Of a stretch of 45,230 nucleotides of DNA, positions 33,389-40,497 are shown piece by piece (within the stretch, counting starts at the first letter, position 1; the number at the start of each line of letters is the position of its first letter). The translations under genes and the position numbers were made by a program. This DNA is from a virus: the IMG/VR virus record IMGVR_UViG_3300028840_001718, positions 1 to 45,230 of that record; one strand, written 5' to 3'. Below the pieces are notes generated by a model. That model did not search any database and had not been told where the DNA came from. It saw only the letters and a program-made list of their open reading frames with translations.

Positions 33389-33775
33389 TTACGGGTTGAC
33401 CGGGGCAACGGCCCCAAGCAACATTGCCAAAACGAAATCATCCCCATCCGCCGCGGCTTCAAGGCAAACGGCAATATCCCAAGCCCCGGCGGTTGCGGCA
33501 ACAACCGCTTCATCCGCAACATCATCCCAAGCAACCGTTTCCGCGGGGGCAAAGACAACCCCGCCCCCGGCTTCTTTGTTCAATCGGTAAACCCCGATAA
33601 TATCCGCGGCCCCTTTTTCATCGGCTTCAAGCCCGGTTGCATTGACAACGCCCCAAAGAACGTTGTCCGAACCATCATCCGCAACCTTGACCAATTCCCC
33701 CGCGTCAACATTCGCAACGGGGGTATAGTCAAGATTCCGTTGGGGACCGTAAACAAAAACAGCATCATTTGACAT
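33389..33775 (-). CDS. DUF2190-like capsid cement protein
   Basis: A 128-residue Ala/Val/Asp-rich β protein. DIIGVYRLNKEAGGGVVFAP followed by AETVAWDD matches the GV-x-x-L-x-K-x-x-G...G-x-V-x-W core of DUF2190 decoration proteins, which bind the outside of HK97-fold capsids. It lies next to the capsid gene, in a unit bounded by two hairpins. The start has GGAAAGGGTTTTCCG. Confidence 0.8.
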   Translation of the reverse strand: MSNDAVFVYGPQRNLDYTPVANVDAGELVKVADDGSDNVLWGVVNATGLEADEKGAADIIGVYRLNKEAGGGVVFAPAETVAWDDVADEAVVAATAGAWDIAVCLEAAADGDDFVLAMLLGAVAPVNP

Positions 33776-33891: not shown

Positions 33892-36498
33892 TTAGGCCCC
33901 CGCGTTTTTGACCGCCCCGTTGGGTTCATTTTCGGCAACGCCCCAATCATGGTAGGACCGCCATTGCATCCCCAACGTGTTGAAATCGGAATCCGCGGAT
34001 TCAATGACCGGGGTTTCATTCCCGTTCAAGAAGCCAATCACAAAAGCGGCAAGAACCGCGGGGTTCCCGAACATATACCATTGATTCCCGTCTTGACCCG
34101 TGAACGCTTGCTTGTCCATCTTCAAGATATTGGTATTGTTCAAGACCGGGGAAATGATCGGCATATACTGCCCAACGTGCGGATTGCGGGAAACAACCCT
34201 TTGGGTTCCGCCGGAACCATCGTCAAGCCATTGAACATTGACTTCATTGAACAAGTCCCGGACGTTGATTGCATCTTGGGCCCCAACAAGAACCCGATCC
34301 GGGGAAACAAGAATCGGCTTGTTATCATGAACTTGATTCCGGAACGCTTCCGCGGAATCGGTCATTCCATTAATCGTCAAATCGGAAGCGGCCCCGGTCA
34401 AAAGGTTTCCATTGGCAACGGAAAAGAACCCGGTCCCTTGGGCCGCAAGGACAAGTTCAAGAACCGCAAATTCAATTGCCAAAGCGGCAAGACGCCCCAA
34501 GGCGGTTGGGATTTGTTGGAAAGCGTCAAGATCGTCATTTATCATATCTTGCCGCGTCAACGCAAGCATCATCCCGTAAGTATCGCCTTGAACCGTGAAC
34601 TTTTGATCGGAAAATTCCCCATGATGAAGTTCCCCGGTCTTTCCGATTTGTTCATAGCCCCCGGTAATTGTCAACCGATAAGTTGAATGGGGTTTGAAGT
34701 CCGTCAAGTTGCGTCTTCCCGTTATCATATTCCAAACCGTTTCTTGGGCAGTATAGGCCGCAAGAAGCGTCTTGTTCGCAACGTTTTCAAGGATGTCCGA
34801 AACCGCAACCGTTGAAAACCCGCCGGATGAAGCCCGAAGTTCCCGTTCCGCCCGAAGGAACGTCTTCAAGTATTCATCGGACTTCCGGCTTCCGCGGTAA
34901 TGTTGCCCCGCGGCTTCAATGTTCATATCCATCAAATAATGAAGCCCAATCCCCCGATACAACCGGGAATCCGCGGCTTCAAGGGTTTCCGGCTTGAACC
35001 AAACTTCAAGCCCGTATTCCCTTTCCCGTCCGTCTTTCGATTGGGCCCGAAGCGGGATGTCCGGGGCAACGGACCGAAGAAGGGCAACTTGCAACGCTTC
35101 CGCTTGGATGTCCGTATTTTCCACCTTGACCCCCTTGAAGTTGCTTGGGGTGGGATAACTTGCCCGGCGGCAAGCAAGTTCAAGTTCATCCGCGGAAGAC
35201 CCGTCCCGGATTGCGTTCTTTTTGGCGGTTGCAAGAAGAACTTCTTTGCCCTTCCAATCAACCTTTTCAATGTCCCCGGAAAACTTGGCGGCAACCGCCT
35301 TGATTCCTTCAACCCGTTCATCTTCATCCGCTTGAAGCTTCCGTTGGGCTTCAAGCTTATCATCCGGGGTGGGGTCCGTATCGTCCGGACCGCCCGCGGA
35401 AGCTTTGACGGGGTTCTTTGCAGGGGGAAGCGGGGGCGGGTTCTTTGTTCCCGCGGCTTCAAGCTTCTTGTGATTCTCCCAATGGGCTTCAAGCTTCTTC
35501 CGTTGATCGTCTGAAAGATCATCCGGGTTCAAGCCCATTGACTTGACAAAATCGGCAAATGTCATTTGTTCAATTCCTCCGTTTTGGAAGGTTTGGGACT
35601 TGGCGGCAATCTTGGCGGAAGTCCGATTGTCCGCCCCAAGAACGGTAATTGTCAATTCTCTAATGATTGACTTTGACGCAACAATCAAAGGGCCCCGCCA
35701 ATTCCGCCCGTTGACTTGAACGCTTTCCCCTTCATCAATGATTTCCCCTTCAACGATTCCGGCCCCAAGTGAAACTTGAAACGGGAACCCGCGTTTTGAA
35801 TCCGCAACATATTCCGCGGCGGTTTGGGAAGAAGAAGAAACAATTCCCCCGGCGGCAACCGCGGGGCCCTTGACGGTCTTCTTCCCAATCTTTCCCGATT
35901 GACCGGCGGGAATGATTGCTTGTTCCGTTGTATGACCAATCCGAAGATTGGTTTCATGGTCTTGAATGACGGGGGTTTTGTTCCGGTCAAACTTTGTCCC
36001 TTCAAGATCAACAATGACGGGATATAGAAAACCCCGGACATCCATTGGACGCCCGGTATTAGCATGAAGAAAGAAAGACGGAACCCGTTCCGGTTCCCCG
36101 TCTTCGGATTCCGTTTTTGCTTTTGCTTCAAAGAAATCAATTTCCCCGGTCAATTCCAACGTTGCGGGAATGTTGAAAGCCAACGGATCAAGGGCAAGTT
36201 CCGCGGACGGATCAAGGGCAAGTTCAAGATCAAGTTCATTTCCCATTGTTCGGGACCCCTTGGGGAAAGCAAGAACCAAAGTTATTCCCTGCCCGATTTC
36301 CTTGTTGCGGTATCGGAACTTGTTTGGTTCCGGATCAACTTGACGGAACCGGAAGAAGCTTGCAGTTTCTTCCAACCCGTCCGTTTTGTAATCATTGGAC
36401 CGCAACCAAGACCGGGCCCGGGCTTTTGTCCAATCGGACTTTTTGAAAAGAACCGATTGGGTATGATTTCCTTTTCCTTTTCTGCCAACGTTGGGCAT
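33892..36498 (-). CDS. Protease-scaffold-major capsid polyprotein
   Basis: An 868-residue single reading frame that is usually two or three genes. The N-terminal ~75 residues (FKKSDWTKARARSWL, FFRFRQVDP) and ~100-300 form a prohead-protease region with the likely catalytic pair QDHETNLRIGH (His) and FPFQVSLGA (Ser). Residues ~312-430 are a charged scaffold-like stretch (NPPPLPPAKNPVKASAGG). Residues ~500-868 are a Mu gpT-like HK97-fold capsid protein (GFSTVAVSDILENVANKTLL, TYGMMLALTRQDMINDDL). Start at 36498 follows GGGGTTGGAACA; a TTG at 36519 is possible. An internal GGAGGA plus ATG at 35565 may yield capsid protein separately. Confidence 0.88.
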   Translation of the reverse strand: MPNVGRKGKGNHTQSVLFKKSDWTKARARSWLRSNDYKTDGLEETASFFRFRQVDPEPNKFRYRNKEIGQGITLVLAFPKGSRTMGNELDLELALDPSAELALDPLAFNIPATLELTGEIDFFEAKAKTESEDGEPERVPSFFLHANTGRPMDVRGFLYPVIVDLEGTKFDRNKTPVIQDHETNLRIGHTTEQAIIPAGQSGKIGKKTVKGPAVAAGGIVSSSSQTAAEYVADSKRGFPFQVSLGAGIVEGEIIDEGESVQVNGRNWRGPLIVASKSIIRELTITVLGADNRTSAKIAAKSQTFQNGGIEQMTFADFVKSMGLNPDDLSDDQRKKLEAHWENHKKLEAAGTKNPPPLPPAKNPVKASAGGPDDTDPTPDDKLEAQRKLQADEDERVEGIKAVAAKFSGDIEKVDWKGKEVLLATAKKNAIRDGSSADELELACRRASYPTPSNFKGVKVENTDIQAEALQVALLRSVAPDIPLRAQSKDGREREYGLEVWFKPETLEAADSRLYRGIGLHYLMDMNIEAAGQHYRGSRKSDEYLKTFLRAERELRASSGGFSTVAVSDILENVANKTLLAAYTAQETVWNMITGRRNLTDFKPHSTYRLTITGGYEQIGKTGELHHGEFSDQKFTVQGDTYGMMLALTRQDMINDDLDAFQQIPTALGRLAALAIEFAVLELVLAAQGTGFFSVANGNLLTGAASDLTINGMTDSAEAFRNQVHDNKPILVSPDRVLVGAQDAINVRDLFNEVNVQWLDDGSGGTQRVVSRNPHVGQYMPIISPVLNNTNILKMDKQAFTGQDGNQWYMFGNPAVLAAFVIGFLNGNETPVIESADSDFNTLGMQWRSYHDWGVAENEPNGAVKNAGA
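35563..35580 (-). promoter_or_regulatory. Internal GGAGGA site and ATG inside the capsid polyprotein
   Basis: On the minus strand GGAGGAATTGAACAAATG lies in frame at residue 312 of the polyprotein, giving a predicted 557-residue scaffold-capsid product (33892-35565). GGAGG is otherwise nearly absent and marks high-expression starts (tail tube, tape measure), so it is unlikely to be chance. Confidence 0.75.
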
Positions 36499-36605: not shown

Positions 36606-38144
36606 TTATTCCGCGGACCCGGCGGGGCTTGATTCTCCAACCGGAAGACCGTTTTCTTCCCGAAACTTGATGTCTTCCGCAACTTCTTCCCGCCAATCGT
36701 CAACGTCCCGGTTGTGATATTCTTCTTGAATGTCCCGGTCCGTCAATTGACCGTCTTTGCGTTTTGAAATGATTGCGTCCGCAACCTTCTTCGGGTCCGT
36801 ATGGTCAAGACCAACCCGGGGCCAACGCCAATAATGATCCGGGACTTCTTCAAGAAGACTTGGGTTTTCCCGAAGGAAAGAACGCCCCGGGGAAAGATCG
36901 TCTTCAAGGTATCCCGGAACAAGCTTGGCTTCATCCCACCAAAGGTCAAGGGCAGGGTCAAGAACTTGTTCTTCCCCGGTTGTTCGTTCATCGGCAACCC
37001 CGCTTTTGTAATTGTGAACGTCAACAACCGCGGAAGCCATATTTGAATCCGATGAAGAACCGGCCCCGATATTGAATGGAACCAAAAGGGGGCGGATAAT
37101 TTCCCGAAGCAACATATCAACAAATTTGTCATACATTGTCCCGGGTTGTCTTGACTCAAGTTGCTTCAACTTATAGCCCCAAGGCATTGAAGTAATCATT
37201 CCGTATTCAATCGGGAAAACGTCAAACGGATCATCCGTCAATTGGTTCCCCGTTCCGTCCGTCCAAGGGGTCATACTTGGGGGCCCTTCCGTTTCAATGA
37301 TTGCGGAAAAGTCCGCCGCAACTTCCGCGGCCCGAACAACCGCCAATGTATATCTTCGCAATAGGGCACAAAGGGGAAGGGAAGGGGTTATTTCCGGAAT
37401 TCCCCGCAACCAACCGCGGTCTTGGCGGAACCAATGAAGAACAAACTTTGCATCAACCCATTCCCCGCCAAGTTGACGGGCAAAGAAGTTGTATAGGAAA
37501 GACGCCCCGGGATGAAGATTCAAAAGATGATATTGAAGGGGACGGTCATATTCATCAAACCGGCAACCGTCAATTTCATTGACCCGTTGGGCGTTCTTTT
37601 CCGGGGGAAAAATTCCGTCCGAAGAAACCCGGTCCGCTTCAACGCAAAAGAAGTTCAACTTGACCCGATCTTTCAAGCCCGGGTCTTGGAACGCAAAAGC
37701 AAACCCTTCCCCGTCAACAATCTTTGCAAGACGCAACCGCCAAATCTTTTGACGCAACTTGACCGCTTTTGACCAATGTTGAAAACGTCTTTCAATGTTG
37801 CGGCGGGTTTCCTTGGGAATCCGGCGGTCCGTAATCTTCAACGTTGGTCCGGTCTTGACCGTATCCCCAACAACGGTCAAAATCGTTCCCTTCAAATACG
37901 GATTGTTTTCAATCGTTTCATACCTTGACCGGGAACGCAATTTGCGGCGGATCGGAAGGGAATTGGCGGAATGGGGGTCAAGTTGATCCGCTTGGGACCA
38001 ATGCCTTTCATTCCCTTCAACGGTTTGGGCCGCGTCATATTTTGCCTTGATGATTTCCCGCCGCAAAGACCGAAGTTCCGCTTGAACTTCATCCCGCTTT
38101 GTCTTGAATCCGTTTCCGAATTGGTCAACGATTATTGACGGCAT
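36606..38144 (-). CDS. Portal protein (lambda gpB type)
   Basis: A 512-residue protein that forms the dodecameric DNA channel at the capsid vertex. RSRYETIENNPYLKGTILTV near the N-terminus, the central EWVDAKFVLHWFRQDRGWLR and GIPEITPSLPLC are typical of lambda-type portals. The C-terminal ~60 residues are acidic and helical (DRDIQEEYHNRDVDDWREEV). GAAAGGTTGAAATA precedes the ATG, immediately behind the sulfotransferase gene. Confidence 0.93.
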   Translation of the reverse strand: MPSIIVDQFGNGFKTKRDEVQAELRSLRREIIKAKYDAAQTVEGNERHWSQADQLDPHSANSLPIRRKLRSRSRYETIENNPYLKGTILTVVGDTVKTGPTLKITDRRIPKETRRNIERRFQHWSKAVKLRQKIWRLRLAKIVDGEGFAFAFQDPGLKDRVKLNFFCVEADRVSSDGIFPPEKNAQRVNEIDGCRFDEYDRPLQYHLLNLHPGASFLYNFFARQLGGEWVDAKFVLHWFRQDRGWLRGIPEITPSLPLCALLRRYTLAVVRAAEVAADFSAIIETEGPPSMTPWTDGTGNQLTDDPFDVFPIEYGMITSMPWGYKLKQLESRQPGTMYDKFVDMLLREIIRPLLVPFNIGAGSSSDSNMASAVVDVHNYKSGVADERTTGEEQVLDPALDLWWDEAKLVPGYLEDDLSPGRSFLRENPSLLEEVPDHYWRWPRVGLDHTDPKKVADAIISKRKDGQLTDRDIQEEYHNRDVDDWREEVAEDIKFREENGLPVGESSPAGSAE

Positions 38145-38148
38145 TATT

Positions 38149-38841
38149 TCAACCTTTCATTCCAAGCCAACGGTTGATTTCTTCTTCCCGGTCCGGAAGA
38201 AGTTGAATCAACGCTTGATTGTAAGGGCGGTATCTCTCCGCAAGTTCCTTCTTCAAAGAATCCCATTTTGGGTCTTGTCCGGACCGGCGGTTTGATCTTC
38301 GGACGTTGACCCGTTCAACGGGGTCCGCCCCAAGAAAAGCGTATATCTTTTTGATTTCCCCTTCCGTATCTTCCCGCAAGCTTTCATTGAACAATATATG
38401 AACGCGGTCCCGCGGGAACAACCCGAAGACGTTTTGAAGTTGCGGGGCATAACATCCCCGCCAAAAGATTTCCGCGTTGCCCTTCGGGTTCCGTCCGAAA
38501 GTTTGAAAAGTCCGATGGGAAATGAACCGAACAACGGGGTCCCGAAGAATGGCAATCAACTTGACATCCGGACAAAACTTTTGCATCAAGATCATTGCCT
38601 TGACATCGGACATATAACGGGGCGTCTTTTCCCCTGCAATCTTCCCGTTGCAATTGGCAAACAAGCCCCTATACCATTCAACGCCCTTGACCCATTTCTT
38701 CGGGTTGTCAAAGAAATGAACTTCCCCGAAGCGGTCTTGAACGGTTTTGATTTGCCGATGTTGACCCAACATCCGGATTGTTACGGATGTTCCCGCTTTC
38801 ATTGCCCCAATCAAGATGAAGTCCGGGTTCCGTCCGTTCAT
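38149..38841 (-). CDS. PAPS-dependent sulfotransferase
   Basis: The 230 residues start with DFILIGAMKAGTSVTIRML (5'-phosphosulfate loop, residues 12-20), followed by FGEVHFFDN, AGEKTPRYMS and IAILRDPVVRFISH (3'-phosphate site, ~98-109). This is the heparan-sulfate/NodH-like order of carbohydrate sulfotransferases. It should move sulfate from host PAPS to a hydroxyl on a glycan. Its ATG overlaps the glycosyltransferase stop (ATGA), so both are coupled. It lacks a signal peptide, so it acts in the cytoplasm. Confidence 0.9.
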   Translation of the reverse strand: MNGRNPDFILIGAMKAGTSVTIRMLGQHRQIKTVQDRFGEVHFFDNPKKWVKGVEWYRGLFANCNGKIAGEKTPRYMSDVKAMILMQKFCPDVKLIAILRDPVVRFISHRTFQTFGRNPKGNAEIFWRGCYAPQLQNVFGLFPRDRVHILFNESLREDTEGEIKKIYAFLGADPVERVNVRRSNRRSGQDPKWDSLKKELAERYRPYNQALIQLLPDREEEINRWLGMKG

Positions 38842-39452
38842 TTCCAAGACCCCATCAAATGATGAATTGCAAAAAGTTCTTCCCGGGCAAACATAAACGT
38901 CTTTTTCCCAAGAAGGGAACCGCGGAAATTTGCCAACCATTGAAACGGAATTGAAGGGGGAAGATTGTCTTGCCAAAAACCGTCAATCCCGTTTCTTTCC
39001 GGCTTATACGGGAACCCTTCTTCAAGGGTTGGGACAAGTCCCCGGAAATGTTCAATCGTCTTCTTCAAAAAGGGATGTCCCGCGGGGAACCCGAAGAAGA
39101 AACCAACCGCCCCATTCTTTGAAGGTTTCCGATAATTGACCCGCTTCCCAACAACGGGACCGCCGGATTCCAAAAAGAAATCAACGGGCCGCAAAAGTTC
39201 AATATCACAATCGGCATAAAACCCGCCATGATTGAAGACGATTTCCGCCCGGGCAATATCGGAAGCAAAGACCGGGAACGATTGGAACCCGCGGCAAAGT
39301 TCCCCGGTCAACGGCAAATTGAAAACGTCTTCATCCCGCCAAATGATTTGATCCCAACCCGGTTGATACTTCCGCCAAGAAAGCAGACATTCCCGGGCAA
39401 GTTCCGGAATCGGTTGCGGACCAATCCAAATATGATGAACAACGGACATCAT
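38838..39452 (-). CDS. GT32-like glycosyltransferase
   Basis: A 204-residue enzyme: VVHHIWIGPQPIPE at the start (family IPKIIHHIWIG), then FASDIARAEIVFNHGGFYAD with the DCD metal site (81-83) and GFFFGFPAGHPFLKKTIEHF. It transfers sugar from a nucleotide-sugar; donor and acceptor are unknown. It is a tandem relative of the next upstream gene. It is coupled by ATGA to both neighbours. Two adjacent ATGs (39452, 39449) are possible starts after AAGGGCGGA. Confidence 0.88.
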   Translation of the reverse strand: MMSVVHHIWIGPQPIPELARECLLSWRKYQPGWDQIIWRDEDVFNLPLTGELCRGFQSFPVFASDIARAEIVFNHGGFYADCDIELLRPVDFFLESGGPVVGKRVNYRKPSKNGAVGFFFGFPAGHPFLKKTIEHFRGLVPTLEEGFPYKPERNGIDGFWQDNLPPSIPFQWLANFRGSLLGKKTFMFAREELFAIHHLMGSWK

Positions 39453-40099
39453 TCCGCCCTTGGTTTCTTCGGGGTGCTTTTGGCAAAATGAATCCCGAAC
39501 ATTTCCCCCCGCTTCTTTTCAATTAGGCAAGAAACCTTTCCGCGGAAGACCGATTTGAAACGGGTCTTGAAGACGGAACAATTGAAAGCAAAGGGCAACG
39601 GGTTTTCAATTTGGGCGGACCGCCAACCGCCAATCAAGCGGTTGATTTCATAAGGGCGGTTCAAAATCGGATCAATGTTGGCTTCAAGATGGTCAAGGAC
39701 CCGCTTCAAATAGGAATGACCCGCGGGGAACCCGAAGAAACAAAGCGTTGGTTGTTCTTCATGAAACTTCCCTTTTGCCTTGCAACCAAGAACAACTTCA
39801 TGATGAACCAACGGTTCAAGGGAATCAAGAAATTCAATGTCACAATCGGAATAAAATCCGCCGGTTTCAAGAATGACTTCCGGTTTTGCAAGATCGGAAA
39901 AGACTTCAAACCGCAAGTCCGCTTGTTCCAAAGCTTGTCCGCAAAGCTTTCCCATTCTTGGAAGGGCGGCAACCGCTTCTTCATCCCAAAGCTTGACTTC
40001 CCAACCCGGATTGCATTGACGGAAAGATTCAATGCAACGCTTGGCAAAGCGGGACATTGGCGGACCGGACCAAATGAAATTGATGATCTTTGGAATCAT
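39449..40099 (-). CDS. GT32-like glycosyltransferase, tandem paralogue
   Basis: The 216 residues start at the ATG at 40099 behind GGGGGCGGGA. IPKIINFIWSGPP, then FSDLAKPEVILETGGFYSDC with DCD at 85-87, and CFFGFPAGHSYLKRVLDHL parallel the downstream gene, indicating a tandem duplication (a shared CCCGCGGGGAACCCGAAGAA is visible in the DNA). Different specificities would allow a disaccharide to be built and then sulfated by the third gene of the cluster. Confidence 0.88.
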   Translation of the reverse strand: MIPKIINFIWSGPPMSRFAKRCIESFRQCNPGWEVKLWDEEAVAALPRMGKLCGQALEQADLRFEVFSDLAKPEVILETGGFYSDCDIEFLDSLEPLVHHEVVLGCKAKGKFHEEQPTLCFFGFPAGHSYLKRVLDHLEANIDPILNRPYEINRLIGGWRSAQIENPLPFAFNCSVFKTRFKSVFRGKVSCLIEKKRGEMFGIHFAKSTPKKPRAE

Positions 40100-40110
40100 T
40101 CCCGCCCCCG

Positions 40111-40497
40111 TCAATCATTATGAACAATCACTTGAACAAGGCAAGCGGCGGTATCGGCTTTCAAGTGAACGGTCCCGCCGGAAACCGCTTGGGGGTCAAT
40201 CCGGAATTGGGCGGGTTCCCCGGGCTTCATTCTTCCGTATGGGTGAAACGTTCCGGCAACTTTCGGACCGTGTTGAACAATGTTGTCCGGGTCAAGATTC
40301 TTGAACCGGGCCCAACCAACAAGGGCCAAAGAAGAAAGGTCAACGTCAATCCCGGCGGTTGGAACGGTCAACGTTCCCGGAACCCCGCCCCCTATATTGT
40401 TTTGGTCAAAGGTCATTCTTTCTTGACCGATGTTCCCGGAATCCCAACCCGCGTCTTGATCTTTGGCTTGAAGTGACATTGTTGCAAAGATTGACAT
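40111..40497 (-). CDS. Hypothetical protein before the glycosylation cluster
   Basis: A 128-residue β-rich, Gly/Thr-rich protein (GTLTVPTAGIDVDLSSLALV, VSGGTVHLKADTAACLVQVI). It looks like a small virion or decoration protein. GAAAGGGGAAAGGCA precedes the ATG. It immediately precedes two glycosyltransferases and so is a second possible acceptor or carrier. No family is recognised. Confidence 0.65.
   Translation of the reverse strand: MSIFATMSLQAKDQDAGWDSGNIGQERMTFDQNNIGGGVPGTLTVPTAGIDVDLSSLALVGWARFKNLDPDNIVQHGPKVAGTFHPYGRMKPGEPAQFRIDPQAVSGGTVHLKADTAACLVQVIVHND

Follow-up and report, generated by a model that had tools for sequence, protein, structure and literature searches.

A head gene that carries its own protease raises a question of stoichiometry. 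Where protease, scaffold and major capsid protein (MCP) are encoded by one tripartite gene and only the full-length product is made, one protease is made per capsid subunit. The question is posed by an 868-codon gene in the 45,230-nucleotide stretch of viral DNA analyzed here, which is called the window (Table 1). We hold with considerable confidence, judging from the sequence, that this gene has a nested start like that of lambda C/Nu3 and would yield both a full-length form and a 557-residue scaffold-MCP from codon 312. A conserved internal start would solve the stoichiometry problem.

Table 1. Positions of the fused head gene, its parts and its neighbors in the window.
Feature	Position	Strand	Basis
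Portal protein, lambda family, directly upstream of fused gene	36606..38144	(-)	PF05136, E=1.3e-37
Fused protease-scaffold-MCP gene, 868 aa	33892..36498	(-)	uninterrupted frame, NCBIfam matches
N-terminal extension, residues 1-84	36247..36498	(-)	alignments to relatives
S78-type prohead protease domain, about residues 105-300	35599..36186	(-)	conserved residues, profile matches of relatives
Linker, residues 301-311, contains putative internal ribosome-binding site	35566..35598	(-)	model and alignment
Internal Shine-Dalgarno GGAGGA	35575-35580	(-)	9 nt before ATG of codon 312
ATG of codon 312, candidate internal start of a predicted scaffold-MCP product (557 residues)	35563-35565	(-)	conserved junction ATG
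Scaffold (delta-like) region, residues 312 to about 502	34993..35565	(-)	helical in model
HK97-fold MCP domain, about residues 503-868	33895..34992	(-)	PF25209 and Foldseek
Head decoration (cement) protein, directly downstream of fused gene	33389..33775	(-)	PF09956, E=2.5e-10

The minus-strand frame 36498..33892 runs for 868 codons with zero internal stops, and the domain matches bear out the first-pass annotation, which had placed protease, scaffold and capsid in one frame. It had allowed that a stop between protease and capsid, masked by a sequencing error, would refute it. A separate contig (L002) is 100% identical to the window over 10,604 nt and a single open frame is kept in >50 divergent relatives, isolated phages among them, so an error that hides a stop or a frameshift is excluded. 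The order of the head genes is normal, with the portal gene upstream and the cement protein gene downstream. Unusually for a head module, the region between the terminase and portal genes (window 38149-40114, minus strand) encodes a sulfotransferase (PF00685, E=1e-18) as well as two genes that resemble glycosyltransferases and have a DXD region (PF04488).

The relative set consisted of 39 fused aligned members with identities down to about 20%, and the window is included in the count of 39 in the profile tests. Scans of genome contigs contributed relatives as well (0 in the first scan and 5 in the second). The N-terminal extension is present in the window and in L004, absent from L003, L005 and L007, carries a WT..A..WL...RFRQ motif and has zero Pfam matches. 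M85, directly after the extension, has a Shine-Dalgarno (SD) pairing energy of -7.1 kcal/mol and may be an alternative start. The protease domain has a putative triad of H181, S243 and E281, residues to which we assign these roles by analogy with HK97 gp4. H181 and S243 are nearly invariant among the 39 aligned members, and most members of the S78 type retain E281. PF04586 matches 20/39 and TIGR01543 matches 15/39 aligned members; the window protein itself is matched by neither and has zero Pfam protease matches. The ClpP profile (PF00574) matches just 3/39 members, the window not among them. The linker is disordered in the predicted structure (pLDDT <50 at residues 300-310, ending just before M312), and none of its residues are identical between the window and L003 in the alignment. 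The scaffold region that follows is helical (residues 314-320, 330-349, 378-406 and others) and opens with M-x-F-x-x-[FW]-[VLI], which is conserved in most S78-type relatives. PF25209 covers residues 554-865 with E=4e-36. The predicted structure matched HK97 capsids or heads with a Foldseek E of about 5e-9, and a direct PDB sequence search gave no useful match.

The first-pass annotation had described these parts as usually separate genes. The single frame stands, but it is not unusual in itself because the three-in-one fusion is already known from Gifsy-2, MD8, the Rhodobacter RcC cluster and the NCBIfam models NF045540 and NF045541. The window protein matched NF045541 with E=8e-58 and 196.4 bits (curated cut-off 525) and NF045540 with E=5e-42 and 144 bits (curated cut-off 475); both models matched 39/39 aligned members, window included. 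The protein is a divergent relative of the NF045541 type that lies outside that model's cut-off, and it shares with the NF045541/Gifsy-2 fusion type an N-terminal protease and a C-terminal HK97-fold MCP in a single frame. The study of the Gifsy-2 "tripartite capsid gene" (Effantin et al. 2010, Virology 402:355) is cited in PMC8538268. Gifsy-2 resembles the window in combining a protease, a putative scaffold in the middle and an MCP within a single gene, and in the presence of a decoration protein. The Gifsy-2 protease is reportedly ClpP-like, whereas that of the window gene is S78-type, and we know of no report of an internal start in Gifsy-2.

Pseudomonas phage MD8 gp5 and the F10 group also make protease, scaffold and MCP from one gene according to the available text of PMC8508860. 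The MCP of MD8 is homologous to that of the window, but its protease is ClpP-type rather than S78-type. An internal start is unmentioned for MD8 in the same available text, which has 0 occurrences of "start codon". A capsid-protease fusion is reported in the Rhodobacter RcC cluster in the available text of PMC8601537. HK97 has an S78 protease as in the window, with gp4 and gp5 as two separate genes instead of one, and the predicted 557-residue scaffold-MCP would be the equivalent of HK97 gp5.

The gene reads ...CAA AAC GGA GGA ATT GAA CAA ATG in frame up to codon 312. The in-frame GGAGGA and the ATG at residue 312 are thus both present as claimed earlier, and both are conserved at the protease/scaffold junction in relatives. 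M312 has the best anti-SD pairing among the in-frame ATGs of the gene, with -9.5 kcal/mol compared to -7.1 kcal/mol at codon 85 and about -5.4 to -5.5 kcal/mol at codon 1. Local folding in the window is -3.3 kcal/mol at the internal site versus -10.2 kcal/mol at the full-length start. The stronger SD and weaker folding make the proposed excess of internal product plausible for the window gene. The GTG of codon 459 (35122-35124, minus strand) has a stronger SD pairing than M312 (-11.2 kcal/mol) and was considered as a further internal start. It was rejected, as L004 is the only close relative to share this GTG with an SD, whereas L003 and L005 do not retain the SD. The codon 459 SD is probably a chance product of Lys-Gly-Val codons.

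Conservation of the junction start was analyzed in a zone 5-60 codons past the last motif of the protease with an SD threshold of <= -5.5 kcal/mol. An in-frame junction ATG is present in 39/39 members and lies 9-50 (mostly 13-27) codons past that motif. SD pairing reached the threshold at the in-frame junction ATG in 33/39 members, compared to 4/39 and 0/39 for ATGs shifted out of frame by one and two bases, respectively, and 45/563 (8%) of the other in-frame ATGs of the same genes. The difference between junction and other in-frame ATGs has a Fisher p of about 1e-26, uncorrected for relatedness. Picking the best ATG per junction slightly biases this comparison; 55-codon control windows under the same best-of rule had an SD in 10%. 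When members were clustered at >50% identity, an SD was present in 16/18 clusters. Among the closer relatives, the in-frame junction ATG is shortly preceded by GGAGGG in L004 (82% protein identity), GGAGGA in L005 (72%) and L003 (70%) and AAGGAGAT in L007 (50%). L009, L016 and L017 have the junction ATG with only a weak SD. Internal SDs that are stronger than full-length ones failed as a general rule, with the internal SD exceeding the best N-terminal SD in only 24/39 members.

The conserved element is the DNA signal rather than the encoded peptide, since the linker peptide varies and the codon phase of the motif differs. The SD core lies in codon phases 0, 1 and 2 in 14, 2 and 18 sequences, respectively, and the phase of GGAGGA in the window differs from that in L003. 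A peptide-level cause of GGAGGA is ruled out by this varying phase and by the unconserved linker. Synonymous-codon shuffles that preserve protein and codon usage were used as a null for 54 genes, and gave z = -4.6 at the junction compared to +0.25 and +3.2 in two MCP control regions. The effect per gene is modest, with p<0.05 in 7/54 and significance in the pooled data only, because the linker residues themselves favor SD-like codons. The RNA around the junction ATG folds less stably than that around other in-frame ATGs (-4.5 versus -8.4 kcal/mol, Wilcoxon p 7e-12), a difference that could be due in part to A-rich linker codons.

In three members (L022, L028 and L048) the junction lacks an SD. 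SD leaders are also missing from most neighboring genes of these phages, and several of those genes have A-rich leaders. The 20 nt preceding the junction ATG are 50-70% A in these three members and in L084, a contig of a Bacteroidota genome, and the same holds for L090-L095 where readable. All of these are phages of Bacteroidota type in which SD leaders are missing from most genes, and the A-rich leader type also occurs at others of their genes. SD sequences are naturally absent in Bacteroidetes according to the available text of PMC6847099, and the A-rich junction leaders are consistent with this. From their likeness to L084 and from their leaders, we infer that L022, L028 and L048 infect Bacteroidota. 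The junction signal tracks the local initiation grammar, because lineages without SDs have A-rich leaders at this place, and this is unlike what is expected of a relic or of a peptide constraint.

A relic would arise if once-separate genes had lost the stop between them and left a functionless old ribosome-binding site in the linker, with only a full-length precursor being made and cut. The split arrangement does exist. Faecalibacterium phage FP_Epona (L060) has a 176-aa protease gene and then a separate 530-aa scaffold-MCP gene that starts with AGGAGGT...ATG at a place equivalent to the junction start, and the linker is the exact place where such a remnant would sit. However, a remnant would be expected to decay, and the SD-ATG persists down to about 20% identity despite freely changing linkers, shifts its codon phase and, in lineages without SD leaders, gives way to A-rich ones. 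A T=7 shell has about 415 capsid subunits, and a full-length-only scheme puts a protease domain on every one of them. We consider a relic unlikely. The FP_Epona product names (L060 1477-3613) look misplaced: the protease is gp38, which is named "major head and protease protein", and the scaffold-MCP is gp39, which is named "head maturation protease". L020 (3001-5011) was considered as another split relative, as its protease and MCP parts are in different frames with the change near the end of the protease. The different frames look like a frameshift and not a gene boundary, and farther downstream L020 retains the junction ATG and its AGGA.

Slower ribosome movement has been proposed as an effect of anti-SD pairing within genes, and the purine-rich motif could be a translational pause that aids protease folding before scaffold synthesis instead of a start. 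The disordered linker is a natural pause point. A pause leaves unexplained why an ATG in the correct frame stands at SD spacing in 39/39 members, as well as the lower RNA structure and the A-rich replacement in lineages without SDs, and we give it very little weight. An assembly error that joined two separate genes is a concern with metagenomic sequence, and L020 has an apparent frameshift in the protease, but such an artifact is next to impossible here and is already refuted by the relatives, namely the identical 10.6-kb contig and the >50 divergent one-frame sequences that include isolated phages.

We favor a nested scaffold-MCP product as the best reading because the domains, the frame and the start hold and because the start is family-wide, its non-SD form included. 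A single late gene would give two nested in-frame products: translation from the upstream start would make the full protease-scaffold-MCP polypeptide, and the internal SD-ATG at codon 312 would make the 557-residue scaffold-MCP. Because the capsid domain would be common to both products, the protease-linked form would co-assemble into the procapsid and the protease would be delivered inside. The protease would then remove linker and scaffold, and identical mature MCP would result from both precursors. The analysis shows the frame, the domains and a conserved start signal at the junction; start usage, co-assembly, cleavage and the internal product as the major one are what we infer.

The ClpP-type fusions extend the pattern to a protease unrelated to S78. 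F10, a relative of MD8, has CAGGAG...ATG at codon 220, and F10, LESphi2, Fels-1, mEp213, mEp460, Pmp14 and PSTCR8lys all have a Met after the protease with a GAGGA or AGGAG leader. It seems rather likely that protease-scaffold-MCP fusions as a rule carry a conserved internal start, with S78 and ClpP proteases and with SD and non-SD leaders, that this start sets the protease-to-capsid ratio and that it ties each protease to a procapsid-targeting capsid domain. A second, protease-free precursor missed by annotation is predicted in such phages, including the well-known isolates F10, MD8, Fels-1 and mEp213. No description of an internal start in protease-scaffold-MCP fusions was found in searches of an open-access library, and the conserved start is apparently undescribed so far.

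The likeness to lambda C/Nu3 with the MCP included, as originally suggested, is borne out by the start signal at the junction and by the in-frame MCP. In lambda C/Nu3, too, an internal start lies in frame behind the protease domain and gives a protease-free scaffold. The lambda MCP (E) is a separate gene, whereas the predicted internal product of the window includes the MCP. The window gene would work in the manner of C/Nu3 without belonging to that type, because its MCP is in the same frame, and the nested-gene principle would be extended to the capsid protein itself. Lambda C served as a positive control for the scoring of internal starts. The same score ranked lambda C codon 309 first (SD -9.7) with 131 residues remaining, which we take to be the Nu3 start and the size of gpNu3. 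The lambda record (L148, NC_001416, 933) annotates nu3 from C codon 239, where the SD is -6.4.
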